DNA from: Oerskovia merdavium | GTDB taxonomy: Bacteria > Actinomycetota > Actinomycetes > Actinomycetales > Cellulomonadaceae | Direction of reading: 5' to 3' | DNA: 38,089 nt | NCBI RefSeq assembly: GCF_014836755.1 | Contig: NZ_JACSQF010000001.1 | Span: 439,994-478,082, forward strand | Translations under genes and position numbers: made by a program | Notes under the pieces: generated by a model | Databases searched by the model: none | Seen by the model: only the letters and a program-made list of their open reading frames with translations | Told to the model about the DNA's origin: nothing | Part shown: positions 9,960-37,666 of the stretch, in pieces | Layout: the number at the start of each line of letters is the position of its first letter | Numbering within the stretch: the stretch's first letter is position 1

Positions 9960-10009
9960 GCCCGACGGCGGGGCGCACCCGAGCGCTCAGGTGCGCCCCG
10001 TCGTCGGGC
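9960..10009 (-). terminator. strong hairpin terminator of the aminotransferase gene
   Basis: Arms 9960-9979 and 9990-10009 pair over 20 bases with one mismatch around a 10-base loop, starting 8 bases past the stop codon of the aminotransferase gene (minus strand). The stem begins GCCCGACG at the outer end and closes with GGTGCGCC at the loop. There is no U-tract. It separates the aminotransferase from the alpha-galactosidase gene. Confidence 0.75.
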
Positions 10010-20784: not shown

Positions 20785-20826
20785 CGCCCGTGGGCCCCGC
20801 CGTCTGCCGGTCGGGGCCCACGGGCG
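20785..20826 (+). terminator. long hairpin terminator after the first DUF4190 gene
   Basis: A perfect 15-bp stem (20785-20799 with 20812-20826; left arm CGCCCGTGGGCCCCG) and a 12-base loop, 13 bases past the stop codon. A second small hairpin (CGCTCC, TG, GGAGCG) overlaps its end. There is no U-tract. Confidence 0.8.
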
Positions 20827-31652: not shown

Positions 31653-32348
31653 ATGTCTCGTTCCTCAGAGCGCTCCGGGCGCTCGGCCCGTCCGCGGTCC
31701 TCAGCAGCCCGACGGCGCCTGCACGCCCTCGCATGGCGGTCACGTCCCGTCGTGGTCGCCGTGGGGTGCGGCCTCGCGGCCGCGGTCGTCGTGGGCAGGG
31801 TGAGCCCGCCACCCCCCGAGACCAGCCCCGTGGTGGTCGCCGCACGGGACGTGGGGGCCGGGGTCGTGCTGACCGGTCGCGACCTCCGGGTCGAGGACGT
31901 CGTGTCGTCGCTCGCACCGCAGGCCTCCCTGACCAGGGTGAGCGACGCCGTCGGGCGCACGACGTCCGTCGCGCTGACGCGCGCGCAGCCCGTCACCCCG
32001 TCGCTCGTGGCCGCGGGCGACCTCGCTGCCTCGGCTCCCAGCGGGACGGTCGTCGCACCCGTCCGGCTGGCCGACCCTGCGGTGTCGGCCCTGCTGGGCC
32101 CCGGGGACCGGGTGGACCTCCTCGTCGCGGCGTCCGGCACCGACGATCCCACGGGCGGGGCGCCCGGCACGTACGTCGCGCGACGTGCGCTCGTGCTGGC
32201 AGGGGTGCCCGCCGAGGCCGCGGGCGGGCTGCTCGGCGGTGACCCGGCCGAGGACGGCGTGACGCTCGTGGCCGTGCTGCCCGACGAGGCTGCGTCGCTC
32301 GCAGGGCTCGGCCAGTGGGGCGGGCTCTCGGCCGTCCTGGTGCAGTAG
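31653..32348 (+). CDS. SAF-domain protein (CpaB/RcpC-like), membrane-anchored
   Basis: A 231-residue protein with a basic Arg/Ser-rich start, one membrane segment (about residues 32-49, SRPVVVAVGCGLAAAVVVG), and an external SAF domain (VVVAARDVGAGVVLTGRDLRVEDVV, then VGRTTSVALTRAQPVTPSLV). The following region (VRLADPAVSALLGPGDRVDLLVA) is like that in CpaB/RcpC pilus-assembly proteins. No pilus genes are adjacent, so a pilus role is not shown; such stand-alone SAF proteins between fmdB and mscL are common in related genomes, by my recollection. No ribosome binding site precedes the ATG, and TACGGT six bases upstream suggests leaderless translation. The gene may also be read through from fmdB, about 100 bases upstream. 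Confidence 0.8.
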   Translation: MSRSSERSGRSARPRSSAARRRLHALAWRSRPVVVAVGCGLAAAVVVGRVSPPPPETSPVVVAARDVGAGVVLTGRDLRVEDVVSSLAPQASLTRVSDAVGRTTSVALTRAQPVTPSLVAAGDLAASAPSGTVVAPVRLADPAVSALLGPGDRVDLLVAASGTDDPTGGAPGTYVARRALVLAGVPAEAAGGLLGGDPAEDGVTLVAVLPDEAASLAGLGQWGGLSAVLVQ

Positions 32349-32457
32349 TGACGCCCGCCGGCGGCGGCACCTGGACAGGGGGTGGGCCGAGACGCCCAGA
32401 TGCGCGACCGCCTGAGCATGGAAGGATCGCGACGGTACAAATCCGCTGGCCGGACGC

Positions 32458-32491
32458 CGCCGAGAGATCGGCGCGCAGACCGGGTCTGCGC
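32458..32491 (+). promoter_or_regulatory. two stacked hairpins in the mscL leader
   Basis: CGCCGA (32458-32463) and TCGGCG (32468-32473) close a GAGA (GNRA-type) tetraloop. Immediately after, GCGCAGAC (32473-32480) and GTCTGCGC (32484-32491) close a CGG triloop. They end 8 bases before the AAAGGAA ribosome binding site of mscL. The pairing is dense enough to suggest a structured leader, but no known riboswitch core is recognised. Confidence 0.4.
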
Positions 32492-32512
32492 CCCTCTCGA
32501 AAGGAAACTGGC

Positions 32513-32959
32513 ATGAAGAACGTGTTCAACGGCTTCAAGGAGTTCGTGCTCCGCGGCAACGCGATCGACCTGGCGGTCGGTGTCGTGATCGGCGGAGCGT
32601 TCACGCTCGTCGTCACGTCGATCGTCGACGGCCTGATCACCCCGCTCGTCGCCGCCATCTTCGGCAAGCCGGACCTGACGGGGGTCTGGAACTTCACCAT
32701 CAACGGTGCCGACTTCAGCATCGGCCTCATCCTCGACGCTCTCTTCAAGTTCCTGTGCGTCGCTGCCGCTCTCTACTTCGTCATCGTCATGCCCATGAAC
32801 CACCTGGCCTCGATGCGCAAGAAGGGCGAGGAGTCCGAGCCCGAGGCGCCGGCCGAGGACGTCCTGGTCCTCCAGGAGATCCGCGACCTGCTGGCGGCGC
32901 AGAACGCGCGCGGCGCGGGGCCGGGCTCCGGTCCGGTCGACGGGCCCAGCATCCGCTGA
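32513..32959 (+). CDS. mscL: large-conductance mechanosensitive channel MscL
   Basis: A 148-residue MscL, a pentameric inner-membrane valve that opens under hypo-osmotic stress to release solutes. The conserved N-terminal helix and first membrane segment are clear (FKEFVLRGNAIDLAVGVVIGGAF). They are followed by a periplasmic loop with GVWNFTINGADFSIGLI, the second segment (FLCVAAALYFVIVMPMN) and an acidic cytoplasmic bundle (EDVLVLQEIRDLLAAQ). The length and order match the family. The ATG at 32513 has AAAGGAA eight bases upstream. The leader carries two adjacent hairpins, and a GC-rich hairpin follows the gene. Confidence 0.96.
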   Translation: MKNVFNGFKEFVLRGNAIDLAVGVVIGGAFTLVVTSIVDGLITPLVAAIFGKPDLTGVWNFTINGADFSIGLILDALFKFLCVAAALYFVIVMPMNHLASMRKKGEESEPEAPAEDVLVLQEIRDLLAAQNARGAGPGSGPVDGPSIR

Positions 32960-32979
32960 GCCTCGTGCTCGCGCCGTCA

Positions 32980-33001
32980 GGGCGGCGGCCGCGTGCCGCC
33001 C
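32980..33001 (+). terminator. hairpin after mscL
   Basis: GGGCGGC (32980-32986) and GCCGCCC (32995-33001) pair perfectly around an 8-base loop, 20 bases past the mscL stop codon. Confidence 0.6.
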
Positions 33002-33023
33002 ACCTCACCTGCGGGTAGAGGAA

Positions 33024-33077
33024 GGTGTCGTTTCTGCGTAGCCACCACAATTGTGGTGGCTACGCAGAAACGACACC
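33024..33077. repeat. 54-bp perfect palindrome
   Basis: Positions 33024-33050 and 33051-33077 are exact reverse complements with no spacer. The outer ends are GGTGTCG and CGACACC; the centre is CCACAATTGTGG. It lies 65 bases past the mscL stop codon, beyond a normal terminator hairpin, and far from the stop of the convergent gene. Such length and perfection exceed what a terminator needs. It could be a single copy of a dispersed palindromic element (REP/MITE-like), a cruciform-forming site, or a protein-binding site. Confidence 0.95.
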
Positions 33078-33234
33078 GCCCCCTGGCAACACCGACCCAC
33101 CGGTGGAGCCCGCCGTGGCACCCGGCCATTCGGGCGGCCTGTCTGACCATCCGGGCCGCTCTCGGGCAGCCCGCCGACAGCTGCAGCCATGGCCCGCTCT
33201 CGACATCAGCGGACACCGCCGAGCAGCGGACGAC

Positions 33235-33498
33235 TCAGGACCAGTGCGGCGGGACGTCTCGCAGGAGCTCGGCGTCGTGACTGCTCCCCGCAGCCCCCGG
33301 GCGCGCGTCACCCCAGGTCACGGCGTCGTCGTCAGACCCCAGGCCCGCGACCCCCGCCTGCTCGGTACCTCGCCGCACGACTCGGCGGGACCTGCGCCGC
33401 GGATGCCCGGCCGGCGCGCCGACCGCAGGGACGTCGCCCGCAGCGTCGCCCGCAGGGGCCGAGGCATCAGGACGGGAAGCTGGATCGTCGGGGAGCAC
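33235..33498 (-). CDS. possible small Asp/Ala-rich protein downstream of the helicase-like gene
   Basis: An 87-residue frame starting with GTG at 33498, 19 bases after the stop of the helicase-like gene and on the same strand. About 80 percent of codons end in G or C, lower than its neighbours but coding-like. The product is acidic at both ends (MLPDDPASRPDA; LGSDDDAVTWGDARPG) with a basic patch (HPRRRSRRVVRRGTE) in the middle, and it ends DAELLRDVPPHWS. Similar small actinobacterial proteins with a GWGD-like motif and a terminal PPHW exist in my memory, but I cannot confirm a family. The ribosome binding site is weak (GAGAGA). It could also be a non-coding stretch of GC-rich DNA. Confidence 0.45.
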   Translation of the reverse strand: MLPDDPASRPDASAPAGDAAGDVPAVGAPAGHPRRRSRRVVRRGTEQAGVAGLGSDDDAVTWGDARPGAAGSSHDAELLRDVPPHWS

Positions 33499-33517
33499 CC
33501 GTCCATTCTCTCAGCCG

Positions 33518-36500
33518 TCAGTCCGTGCCGAACTCGTCGTCCGCGACCACGGGCACCACCACGATCCGGTCGCCGCCACCCGTCTGCGCGATCCCGCCCC
33601 GCTCGGGCAGCCGCGCGTCGCGCACCGACTGGACGACGCGGCGGATGCGCTCGGCCTCCTTGGCCGGGTCGAGGAACGCCGCAGCGGACCACACCTGCGC
33701 CACGACCCATCCCGCGGCCTCGAGCCGCTCCGCGATCTGCCGGTCGCGGACGCGGACGCTGCGCTCGGCGACGTACGCGTCGTCGTCGGTCAGCACGGCC
33801 ACGAGAAGCTCGCCCGGGATGTCAGGGTGCCCCACGACCAGCGGGATCCGGTCGCCGCCGGCCACGCCGTAGTCGGTCTCGACCACGAGGCCCGCACGCC
33901 ACAGGCGCTCGGCCAGGTCGATCACGAGGCGGTCCGGGTTCCCCCCGACGTCCACACCGTTGCCCAGGGTGACCTGGTCCGCGCGACCGTTGCGCTGCTC
34001 GGCGAGGTCCAGCACCTCCGCGAGGAGCTTCGCACCGTGCCCACGCAGCCTCTCGGGATCGAGGTCGGCCGCGGTGAAGCACGTGACCACGTGCAGACGA
34101 CGACGCGCCGACCCCAGCGTGTCGAGGAGCATCGCGTCCCCACCCGCAGCGTTCAGCACACCGAACCGGTGCAGGACCCGCCCGTGCGGGGTGCGGCCGT
34201 AGCCGACCGACAGGACGATCGCGTCGCGCGCGAGCCCCGCGACCCCCGAGACCTCGGCCACCACGACCGGCTCGGCCCGCGCACCCGAGAAGAACGCGGC
34301 GAGGGCCGGGTTCTGCCGGACCTCGGCGAGCAGCGCGTCCCGGATCCGGTCGGCGTGCACCGCGCTCACCGTGACGATCGCGAGCGACTCCTCGGGGCGC
34401 GTCATGGCGTGCTCGATCGCGATCTCCACGACCCGGTCGACCTCGGCCTGCGTGCTCTCGACCGCGCCCGACGTCGGGTCCGGCATCCCGGCGCCGTCGA
34501 CCAGGTCGAGATGGACCAGTGGTTCGGCGCGCGGCAGGGGGCTCGGGCGGAGCACGCCCGCGTACCCGTGCGCGACCAGGAAGGCCGTGAGGTACGGGTC
34601 GCGTCGAGCGCCGCCCGCCGACAGCGCGACCGTGGGCAGGACCGCGGCGAGCTCCTTGACCGTCGACCCGGACGCCGCGCGCGGGTCCCCGACGACGACG
34701 ACCTGACGGCCACGGGCGAGCGCCGACAGCACGAGCTCGACAGGCAGGTGCTGCACGGCGTCGAGGATCACGAGGTCGACCGTGCGCGCCGGGGTGAACA
34801 GGTGCGGCACGAGCGTGGGTGAGGCGACGACGCACGGGCGCAACCGGCGCAGGACCTCGGGGTAGAGCTCGTGCGCGTCGCGCAGGCTCGTGAGCCGCCC
34901 CTCCAGGAGCTCGGTGAACAAGGCTTCCGCCTCGGACCGGTGATCACGCATCGCACCGCCGAGGTGCTCTCGCACCGCGACCCGCACAGGGGCCGAGAGC
35001 GCCGTGATGTGGGTCCGGTCGAGCTCGCGGAACCGGCCCGCGAGAGCCTCGAGGCCCGCACCGTCCTGCCCGGCCAGCGCAGGGTCCTGCGCGAGGATCT
35101 GCTCGAACACCGAGCTCCACCACGCGAGGTCGAGCTCAGGGCCCACGAGCTCCTTCTCGACCCGGCGGGCCGAGAGGTCGTCGAGGAGATCGCCGAGCCC
35201 CTCGTCTCGCAGCGACCGGAGTGCCGCGGTGCGCGCCGGCAGGTGCTCGAGGGCGTCCTTCTCCTCGCTCAGGCTCGCGAGACGTGCCGCGAGCTCGGGG
35301 AGGGGAAGGTCCATCAGGTCCGAGCCGACGGGAGTCGTGGACAGGACGGGGTCGAGATATTCGAGGTCGAGACGCACCGCCTCGAACGTGTCCTCGATCG
35401 CGGCGAGCCCCTCCGGGAGGGTGGGCCAGCCACCGCGGGGGCACTGCGCCTGCCAGACCGCACGCTGCGCCTGGACCTCGACGAGAGCCGCGTGGAGGTC
35501 GGCGACCCGGACCCCGGGGCGGAGCATGTCCTTGGCCTGCTTGCGCAGCCGCCGCCGGTGGGCCCACCCCATGTCGATCCCGTTGTCCGCGCGCCACTGG
35601 CGCGTGCCGGTGGCCTCGACGAGGTCGGTCGCGGTGCGTTCGAAGATCAGGGGCTGGAACGCGTCGAGGGTGCCGCGCATCCCGCCGAGCATGGTGAGCT
35701 GCTCGCCCCACTGGCGGACCGACGTGGCGGGTGTCAGGCCCGTGGTCCGGGCGACCGACTCGACCTGCTCGCGGAGCTCGGGCAGGGTCCGGCCCGTGAG
35801 CCGCTCGACCCGGACCAGCGCGTCCTGGGCGCCTTCGGTGCTCGTGATGTCCGCACCGAACCAGGGGGTGGACGTCGAACGGAGCGTGAACGCGCCGACG
35901 TCGGCCGCGCCCTCGAGGCGCGCCGCAAGCTCGCCACGGCGCTCGGCACCGATGCGGAGCGTGACCTCGGGTCCGAGGCGGACGGTCGTCGCGGGCGCAG
36001 GGCGCTGCGCGGTGAGGCGTGCGAGCGCCTGCAGGGCCGCGTACGCGGACACCCCCCAGGGCTCGCGCACCAGGTGCAGCGACTCGACGTAGCCCGAGAG
36101 CTGGGCGCGTGCTCCCAGCAGCCCGTCGCGCACGCGGGCGACCGCGTCGGTGTCCACGACCTCGGCCTCCGCGGCCATGGCCGAGAGCAGTCGGTGCGAG
36201 GCCGTGGCCCGCCACGTCGGCTCGGGCTCGATGTCGAGGATCAGACCGTCCAGGCCGAGCGTCTCGAGCCGGTGGGTCAGCGAGTCCGCCGCCCGGCGGT
36301 GCCCGGGGACGTACAGGATGCTCCGCCCGCTGGCTGCCGCCTCGGCCACGACGGCCGCGAGGGTGCCCGCGACGTCGGACCCCGCGGGAGCGTCGACGAA
36401 CAGGTGGCTGCCGGTCGCGAGGGTGTCGATCACGTGGCGCTGGGCGGGGTCGAGGTCGCCCACGCCGCGCTCCTGGGTGGGGTCCGCGTCCCCGACGCGC

Positions 36501-37666
36501 GGGGTCGGGAGCTCGCGCTCGAGCGCGGTCGCGGCCTCGTCGGAGCCGGCGAGCGCCGCGACGACCTCGTGCCGCTCGAGCCCGGAGGCCAGCTCGTCGA
36601 GGTCGTCGACGAGCACCTGGCCGGGGTGGACGAAGGTCCCGACGAGCACGCGCTGGGTCATCTCGAAGTCGCCGAGCACCGCCCGGCCCACGGCCGTGAT
36701 CCGCGCGAGCGCGTCCGAGGGGTCGAAGCCTGCGGGCGTGAACGCGCTGCGAGCGAGCGTCACGGGGTCGATCAGCCCGCCGTGGGCGCGCAGCGTGCGA
36801 GCGAGCAGGGGGTTGATCTCGACGGTCGGTTCGAGCGTCAGGTCGTAGTCGGTCTCGCTGTCGCCGCGCGGGGTGAGCGTGAGTGGTCGCAGTAGGACCG
36901 GGGCGCGCACGGTGCGCGGGAGGCTCGGGTCGGGCGCAGGGGCCTCACCGGCCGGGCTCGCGGTGCCGCCGTCGGGCCCGCCGGCGCCGCTTGCCCCGCG
37001 CGGCGTGCTCGCGGTGGCGTCGTGGTCGCCCTGGGGGGTCTGGGCCGGGTCGGTCGCCGACGGTTCGTGGGCCGGGTCCGCGGGGTCGGCCGGCAGGCCG
37101 GTCGCACCGTCGATGGTCCGGCCGTGCGTCGAGCCGGCGACGTGCGCGAGCGCCGCGACGTCGTCGGTGGGGAGCCGGGAGGGCTCTTCCTCGGTCCAGG
37201 TCGTGACGCCGATCGCGAGGTAGGTCGGAGCGACGCCGTAGCGCTGGGCGTGCTCCTGCGACCGGACGACCACAGCGCGGGCCCTGCGGCGCGCAGCTGG
37301 CAGCGACGCGCCCTCACGGAAGAGGTTGGACAACCGGGTCGGACGACCGGCGAAGAGCTGTGCGACCCCTGACGGGTGGGCGGCGGTGAGGTCGATGACG
37401 GCGTCACCCAGGAGCCCGATGTCCGCGAGCGAGGAACCACCCGCGAGCTCGACGAGCGAGGCTCGCCAGGACCGGACCGCGTCCTCGACGAGCTCGGCGG
37501 TCGTGGGGGGCTCGACGAGCACCGGTGGCGACGCGACGGGCGTGCCGTCGGCTCCGTTCGGCGAGGCACCGGCTGATGCGCCGTCGGGCGCGGTCTGGTC
37601 GGTGAGCGGCCGAGCGGGATCGGCCACGGACTCGTGGGCAGATGAGGTGCGGGCGGCTGCGTTCAC
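33518..37666 (-). CDS. SF1 helicase-like protein with degenerate ATPase motifs and C-terminal REase-like domain
   Basis: A 1382-residue protein. After a low-complexity start, a globular region (about 55-400) leads to a superfamily-1 helicase-like core and a C-terminal domain (about 1255-1380) resembling the MTES_1575/Vsr-type nuclease fold (LVVETDYGVAGG, ELLVAVLTDDDAYVAERSVRVRDRQIAERLEAAGW, VAQVWSAAAF). The place of Walker A (HLFVDAPAGSDVAGTL, near 424) lacks the Gly-Lys-Ser/Thr. The Walker B region (VDLVILDAVQHLP, near 964) has Ala where the catalytic Glu should be. Later helicase motifs (VVVVGDPRAASG, DAIVLSVGYGRTPHGRV, LGSARRRLHVVTCF) keep their outline. It is probably not an active ATPase, perhaps a DNA-binding scaffold. 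The GTG at 37666 has TAGCGT ending 6 bases upstream, so a leaderless transcript is likely. Confidence 0.8.
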   Translation of the reverse strand: MNAAARTSSAHESVADPARPLTDQTAPDGASAGASPNGADGTPVASPPVLVEPPTTAELVEDAVRSWRASLVELAGGSSLADIGLLGDAVIDLTAAHPSGVAQLFAGRPTRLSNLFREGASLPAARRRARAVVVRSQEHAQRYGVAPTYLAIGVTTWTEEEPSRLPTDDVAALAHVAGSTHGRTIDGATGLPADPADPAHEPSATDPAQTPQGDHDATASTPRGASGAGGPDGGTASPAGEAPAPDPSLPRTVRAPVLLRPLTLTPRGDSETDYDLTLEPTVEINPLLARTLRAHGGLIDPVTLARSAFTPAGFDPSDALARITAVGRAVLGDFEMTQRVLVGTFVHPGQVLVDDLDELASGLERHEVVAALAGSDEAATALERELPTPRVGDADPTQERGVGDLDPAQRHVIDTLATGSHLFVDAPAGSDVAGTLAAVVAEAAASGRSILYVPGHRRAADSLTHRLETLGLDGLILDIEPEPTWRATASHRLLSAMAAEAEVVDTDAVARVRDGLLGARAQLSGYVESLHLVREPWGVSAYAALQALARLTAQRPAPATTVRLGPEVTLRIGAERRGELAARLEGAADVGAFTLRSTSTPWFGADITSTEGAQDALVRVERLTGRTLPELREQVESVARTTGLTPATSVRQWGEQLTMLGGMRGTLDAFQPLIFERTATDLVEATGTRQWRADNGIDMGWAHRRRLRKQAKDMLRPGVRVADLHAALVEVQAQRAVWQAQCPRGGWPTLPEGLAAIEDTFEAVRLDLEYLDPVLSTTPVGSDLMDLPLPELAARLASLSEEKDALEHLPARTAALRSLRDEGLGDLLDDLSARRVEKELVGPELDLAWWSSVFEQILAQDPALAGQDGAGLEALAGRFRELDRTHITALSAPVRVAVREHLGGAMRDHRSEAEALFTELLEGRLTSLRDAHELYPEVLRRLRPCVVASPTLVPHLFTPARTVDLVILDAVQHLPVELVLSALARGRQVVVVGDPRAASGSTVKELAAVLPTVALSAGGARRDPYLTAFLVAHGYAGVLRPSPLPRAEPLVHLDLVDGAGMPDPTSGAVESTQAEVDRVVEIAIEHAMTRPEESLAIVTVSAVHADRIRDALLAEVRQNPALAAFFSGARAEPVVVAEVSGVAGLARDAIVLSVGYGRTPHGRVLHRFGVLNAAGGDAMLLDTLGSARRRLHVVTCFTAADLDPERLRGHGAKLLAEVLDLAEQRNGRADQVTLGNGVDVGGNPDRLVIDLAERLWRAGLVVETDYGVAGGDRIPLVVGHPDIPGELLVAVLTDDDAYVAERSVRVRDRQIAERLEAAGWVVAQVWSAAAFLDPAKEAERIRRVVQSVRDARLPERGGIAQTGGGDRIVVVPVVADDEFGTD

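Follow-up and report, generated by a model that had tools for sequence, protein, structure and literature searches.

The perfect 54-bp palindrome at 33024-33077, downstream of mscL, is one copy of a dispersed family of intergenic palindromes, about 54-70 bp long and restricted to the genus Oerskovia, which we call family A. The copies lie between genes, lean toward gene ends and keep their positions across species. On balance, we favour the reading that they serve as bidirectional, U-tract-free hairpins at gene 3' ends, acting as terminators or as barriers at RNA ends. A search of titles and abstract openings, with subscription journals mostly outside it, found no description of such a palindrome family.

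We analysed the palindrome within the window, that is, the whole stretch of DNA under study (38,089 nucleotides). Each of its two 27-base arms (33024-33050 and 33051-33077) is the exact reverse complement of the other, and they meet at a central AATT with no spacer, as the sequence-only reading had described. The symmetry continues imperfectly over 33017-33084 (34-nt arms, 91% complementary; inverted-repeat search), and the core AGCCACCACAATTGTGGTGGCT, common to further family A copies by approximate pattern counts, occupies 33040-33061; none of these three features has a strand. When the arm was sought with up to 3 mismatches, its own two places were the only matches in the window, and 100 dinucleotide-preserving shuffles gave a mean of 0.00. 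The palindrome is also AT-richer than its surroundings, with a GC fraction of 0.556 vs 0.778 and 0.759 in the flanking 54-bp tiles, and two tiles within mscL are low as well (0.574 and 0.593). The RNA fold of the palindrome reached -59.7 kcal/mol against a shuffle mean of -25.1 (z -9.9). An Rfam search of the window at gathering score found no match over 33024-33077, a tRNA elsewhere being the sole match. Two more strong inverted repeats lie in the window, at 9960-10009 and 20785-20826, the former being an ordinary gene-end hairpin by its sequence.

The gene named mscL by the sequence-only reading (32513-32959, + strand, 148 aa) matched once per genome in 19 genomes, and the palindrome begins 64 nt downstream of its stop codon. 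A short 7-bp GC hairpin (32980-33001, + strand) stands between the two. Beyond the palindrome, a simple codon-usage gene caller placed a convergent gene (33518-37522, - strand), whose stop codon is 440 nt from the palindrome. A separate assembly of a congener (G004) carries the palindrome in this position, its arms there being 25 bp long; an assembly artefact, for which a check had been advised, is therefore unlikely.

Approximate counting of the core AGCCACCACAATTGTGGTGGCT (up to 3 mismatches) in 39 genomes gave 13 copies in the window's own genome (G000), 9 in G004 and 2 in G006, with none in the remaining 36 genomes and none in a reversed-sequence control. The exact 20-mer TGTCGTTTCTGCGTAGCCAC was absent from the genome_contigs set, which may leave out the window's own genome, and scanning the collection for a degenerate version of the core gave 8 stretches: 5 from Oerskovia enterophila, 2 from O. 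douganii and 1 from a Clostridia metagenome bin (L040). A first covariance model, built from 21 copies (E up to 1, strands merged, best 150 of 755-924 candidates scored per genome), found at least 49 places in all seven Oerskovia genomes, four of them weaker than 0.001. There were at least 16 places in G000, 10 in G004, 7 in G001, 5 each in G006 and G005, 4 in G003 and 2 in G002. None of the 49 overlapped a called gene, and the suggestion of a dispersed element was thus borne out. In an order sample of 396 genomes, with the best 12 candidates per genome scored, this model gave at least 8 matches at E up to 0.001, 2 in Oerskovia and 6 in others; four of these six (L079, L080, L082 and L083) were rejected, having only short core-like bits in common. 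A second, broader model, built from 45 copies and run with strict filters on the best 22 candidates per genome, matched in 7/7 Oerskovia genomes, adding one further G003 copy outside the fetched copies, and in 0/214 other Cellulomonadaceae genomes. The 45 aligned copies have the common sequence GGTGTGTTTTCTGCGNAGCC...CACAATTGTG...GGCTNCGCAGAAAACACACC, and both arms carry variants specific to individual loci. Five core positions were invariant and 10 were conserved at 90% or more, and the core varied by locus group (CCACCACAATTGTGGTGG, CCAACAATTGTTGG and CCCACAATTGTGGG).

We assigned the neighbours of the 49 family A places with the simple codon-usage gene caller. The results showed 18 convergent, 23 tandem and 6 divergent places and 2 at contig edges, counts that treat orthologous, and hence non-independent, copies separately. 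With the group at tRNA-Ser(CGA) included, 44 of the 47 copies with both neighbours known lie beyond at least one gene end. Lying beyond some gene end is weak evidence alone, because tandem and convergent gaps already make up 446 of the 580 in 1.0 Mb of the own genome, compared with 41 of 47 copies. The convergent share (18/47 copies vs 109/580 of the same gaps), together with an upstream stop codon nearer than the next gene in 18 of the 23 tandem copies, says more than gene-end placement alone. Two ortholog groups were divergent. One (L089, L105 and the weak hit L133) lies 3' of a tRNA-Ser(CGA) gene; the other (L086, L103 and L113) has as neighbours a chitinase-like gene and a called gene that matches no Pfam family, and stays divergent. 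A role of the palindrome as a recombination breakpoint was rejected from the comparison of L086 with L113, where the identity profile has no sharp break at the element. Among eight family-member loci scanned, SAM-IV riboswitches were found at L092 (3499-3618) and L086 (177-294), and at L092 the palindrome separates the riboswitch from the called gene that comes next.

Flank comparison showed that most copies fall into orthologous sites across species, with 14 groups common between species. At two sites, L091 and mscL, an ordinary hairpin takes the palindrome's place in relatives. Downstream of mscL, the palindrome is present in G000 and G004, imperfect in G003 and, by eye, relict-like in G002; G001 and G005 have an ordinary 15-16-bp hairpin there, and G006 has neither type. 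In other genera (G008, G009 and G012), long hairpins of different sequence follow mscL. At the L091 site, as inspected by eye, a GCCCGACGG-type hairpin closely follows the stop codon in 6/6 relatives, and the own genome has the palindrome with no GCCCGACGG-type hairpin; the gene beyond is farther away in some relatives. At L093, the own genome keeps an ordinary hairpin and carries the palindrome as well, and G004 is without the palindrome, through either a gain here or a loss in G004. The right outer arm of L093 reads as if the left host flank TCCCGGGCAGAC had been copied in inverted orientation (one site, by eye). L093 against G004 is the single candidate empty site for family A, and comparison with G004 revealed no clear target duplication. 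No fetched copy was orthologous to any of three own-genome copies (L087, L091 and L093); in the case of L091 and L093, the palindrome is missing from the relatives' sites.

Other long hairpins of the own genome occur in the same kind of place. A census of hairpins with at least 13 net pairs in 1.0 Mb gave 128, among which a few family A copies may remain, the sequence test for their removal having caught 6. Of these, 113 lie in tandem or convergent gaps (38 of 42 with arms of at least 24, 75 of 86 with shorter arms), 4 in divergent gaps and 11 in called genes; in an earlier hairpin census, two mononucleotide-shuffled 200-kb controls yielded 1 and 0 hairpins. Because hairpins of at least 13 net pairs are common at gene ends here, the earlier statement that the palindrome is not needed as a terminator for mscL does not follow, although the 7-bp hairpin on which it was based is present. 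For 18 hairpins scoring at least 17, the syntenic position falls in the fetched part of G004; a hairpin is present at 16 of these positions, and a 17th has related sequence on alignment. In the own-genome assembly, runs of 10 N lie within long hairpins (L098 3001-3076 and L100 3001-3070), in some cases with poly-C behind them, and such runs in hairpins also occur on G000 contigs C11, C8 and C3, which suggests sequencing dropouts at hairpins.

A sister family with GAGAAGTGAGTAGATGCCCC arms was also detected. With up to 3 mismatches, the own genome gives 17 hits in forward and 20 in reverse orientation, and these make up 17 pairs plus 3 single arms; the forward/reverse hits were 17/16 in G004, 16/17 in G001, 19/18 in G005, 7/6 in G003, 5/3 in G002 and 0/2 in G006. 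The palindromes of this sister family (GCCGAGAAGTGAGTAGATGCCCC...) have arms of about 30 bp, for example at G000:C11:363357, G000:C11:364405 and G000:C41:32398. One sister palindrome, at G004:C1:26031, lies about 5 nt after an apparent stop codon (by eye) and is cleanly missing at G000:C3:47413, which has a short version without a hairpin. Further sister families exist, several of them in G012, which belongs to another genus; contig C3 of G012 (L203-L212) has its own repeated long palindromes, whose CGGGGTGTGTTGCTGTGC... type resembles the outer arm of family A.

We compared the arms within and between copies. Among the 45 aligned copies, 86.0% of cells were paired, and 176 double changes were counted vs 67 in shuffles. 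In the 14 ortholog groups, the mean difference was 4.68 between the arms of one copy vs 3.90 between orthologous arms, with 7 groups each way, and in close orthologs most changes fall on one arm. The exceptions, O2, O13 and O14, have 4-7 concerted changes between some species pairs, which look more like replacement by another near-perfect palindrome. In the sense orientation, the 23 copies whose single sense strand is known had 30 G-U pairs vs 21 A-C mismatches, compared with 21 vs 10 in ordinary hairpins and 17 vs 20 in other long palindromes. Judging from their sequences, the copies look as if they were born near-perfect and then decayed one arm at a time. Covariation is therefore no proof of selection on RNA pairing, and that interpretation was withdrawn, the changes within ortholog groups being mostly one-armed. 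The complementarity of the arms seems to have been made at birth or through DNA-level correction and not by steady RNA-level selection.

How the palindrome might work at a 3' end can be outlined as follows. RNA of either strand folds into a stem of 25 bp closed by an AAUU loop, and this stem should halt RNA polymerase or make it pause with no U-tract present, as an 'I-shaped' terminator; alternatively, it should block 3' exonucleases following Rho-dependent termination. In either case the palindrome would insulate mscL from the convergent gene. Copies seem to arise, or to be replaced, as near-perfect palindromes and then to decay, possible routes being template switching or some enzyme. A classical L-shaped intrinsic terminator, in which a GC hairpin precedes a U-tract, was rejected: no U-tract terminator site was detected at 32300-33800 (0.3 in shuffles), and the 3' arm is A-rich, the opposite of a classical terminator. 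The hairpin is stable and U-less like an I-shaped terminator, but it lies 64 nt from the stop codon vs the 50 bp given in a review (PMC12288462). For mycobacteria, that review reports hairpins near stop codons (within 50 bp) that are mainly U-less, as well as dominance of Rho, and it cites a study whose title states a U-tract requirement. Since U-less termination is thus disputed (PMC12288462), we infer rather than assert that the palindrome ends or protects transcripts. Also counted against the 3'-end reading are the one always-divergent site, the G-U pairs hardly above A-C mismatches, the mostly one-armed changes between close orthologs, and the ordinary hairpin that L093 keeps.

It is conceivable, but rather unlikely, that family A is a REP- or MITE-like selfish palindrome, spread among intergenic gaps by some enzyme, with gene ends merely being safe places. 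The likeness of the cores across unrelated loci is far above terminator needs, and the three copies without a fetched ortholog, two of them lacking a palindrome at the relatives' sites, point the same way. So do the range of copy number among congeners, from 1-2 to 16 (lower bounds), the clean absence of the G004:C1:26031 palindrome at the matching own-genome site, and the 17 paired sister copies in the own genome vs 2 weak single arms in G006. An enzyme of the RAYT type, however, was not encountered: the Pfam domain Y1_Tnp was found in 0/7 Oerskovia genomes and, as a control, in 5/14 well-known genomes, so the RAYT option raised by the sequence-only reading was rejected. The MITE option was unsupported. 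Arm-like sequences in 1.59 Mb were paired in palindromes apart from three weak lookalikes, no convincing lone arms being among them. With four arm patterns, each allowed up to 4 mismatches, the same 1.59 Mb, about 1.0 Mb of it from the own genome, yielded no lone arm pair around a gene, as a MITE parent would be; the remaining own genome was covered by one 19-mer pattern. The absence of a clear target duplication at L093 and the sharing of most long hairpins between the own genome and G004 also argue against a selfish element, as do searches of plasmids, phages and viral contigs, which gave no family A match at the sensitivities used. We regard with similar doubt the wider idea that several families of long perfect palindromes in Oerskovia and its relatives copy themselves, RAYT-free, to gene 3' ends and displace ordinary terminators, by which a fraction of terminators would be dispersed, renewing elements.

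The symmetry of the palindrome, its invariant and highly conserved core positions and the lack of preference for G-U over A-C would also suit a double-strand binding site for a sequence-specific protein, be it a nucleoid, recombination or regulatory protein. We consider this improbable, given that the core varies by locus group and the copies lean to gene ends; moreover, protein binding sites are usually shorter than 27-bp arms. Replication template switching, which in E. coli turns imperfect inverted repeats perfect according to PMC7202029, might have produced family A as a mutational by-product with no function beyond. The inverted flank at L093 and the missing clear G-U preference agree with such an origin, but it leaves both the one common sequence at about 20 unrelated sites and the gene-end lean unexplained, and its likelihood is small. 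The 3'-end reading, if true, would make family A a natural system for asking whether long hairpins that lack a U-tract really make actinobacterial RNA polymerase terminate, and also how short palindromic repeats spread in genomes without a REP-associated transposase. Matched sites, with the palindrome in one species and an ordinary hairpin in its relatives, make both questions directly testable.

Among known systems, family A is like REP elements and REPINs in consisting of short, dispersed, intergenic palindromic repeats that can form hairpins and occur in several copies; in PMC8049555, REP elements are linked to termination and RNA stability, and a REPIN is defined as two REPs around a diverse spacer. 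In contrast, the arms of family A meet without a spacer and no two REPs surround one, no RAYT (Y1_Tnp) gene occurs in the seven host-genus genomes, and the family is confined, under strict filters, to one genus of Cellulomonadaceae. It is small, dispersed and made of inverted repeats like a MITE, but it has no internal sequence, the part scanned contained no parent transposon, and the one candidate site shows no clear target duplication. The ordinary Oerskovia gene-end hairpins (GCCCGACGGCGGAGC... type), whose role in termination is likewise inferred, occur in the same kind of place, and at L091 one of them takes up the corresponding 3' end in relatives, but they differ in their mostly shorter stem, usually small loop, GC-richness and sequence. 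With the I-shaped actinobacterial terminators, as presented in PMC12288462, family A has in common a U-less hairpin soon after a stop codon, but its stem is 25-27 bp long and its sequence is common to unrelated loci. Family A is thus REP-like in its distribution, and its placement recalls that of I-shaped terminators.
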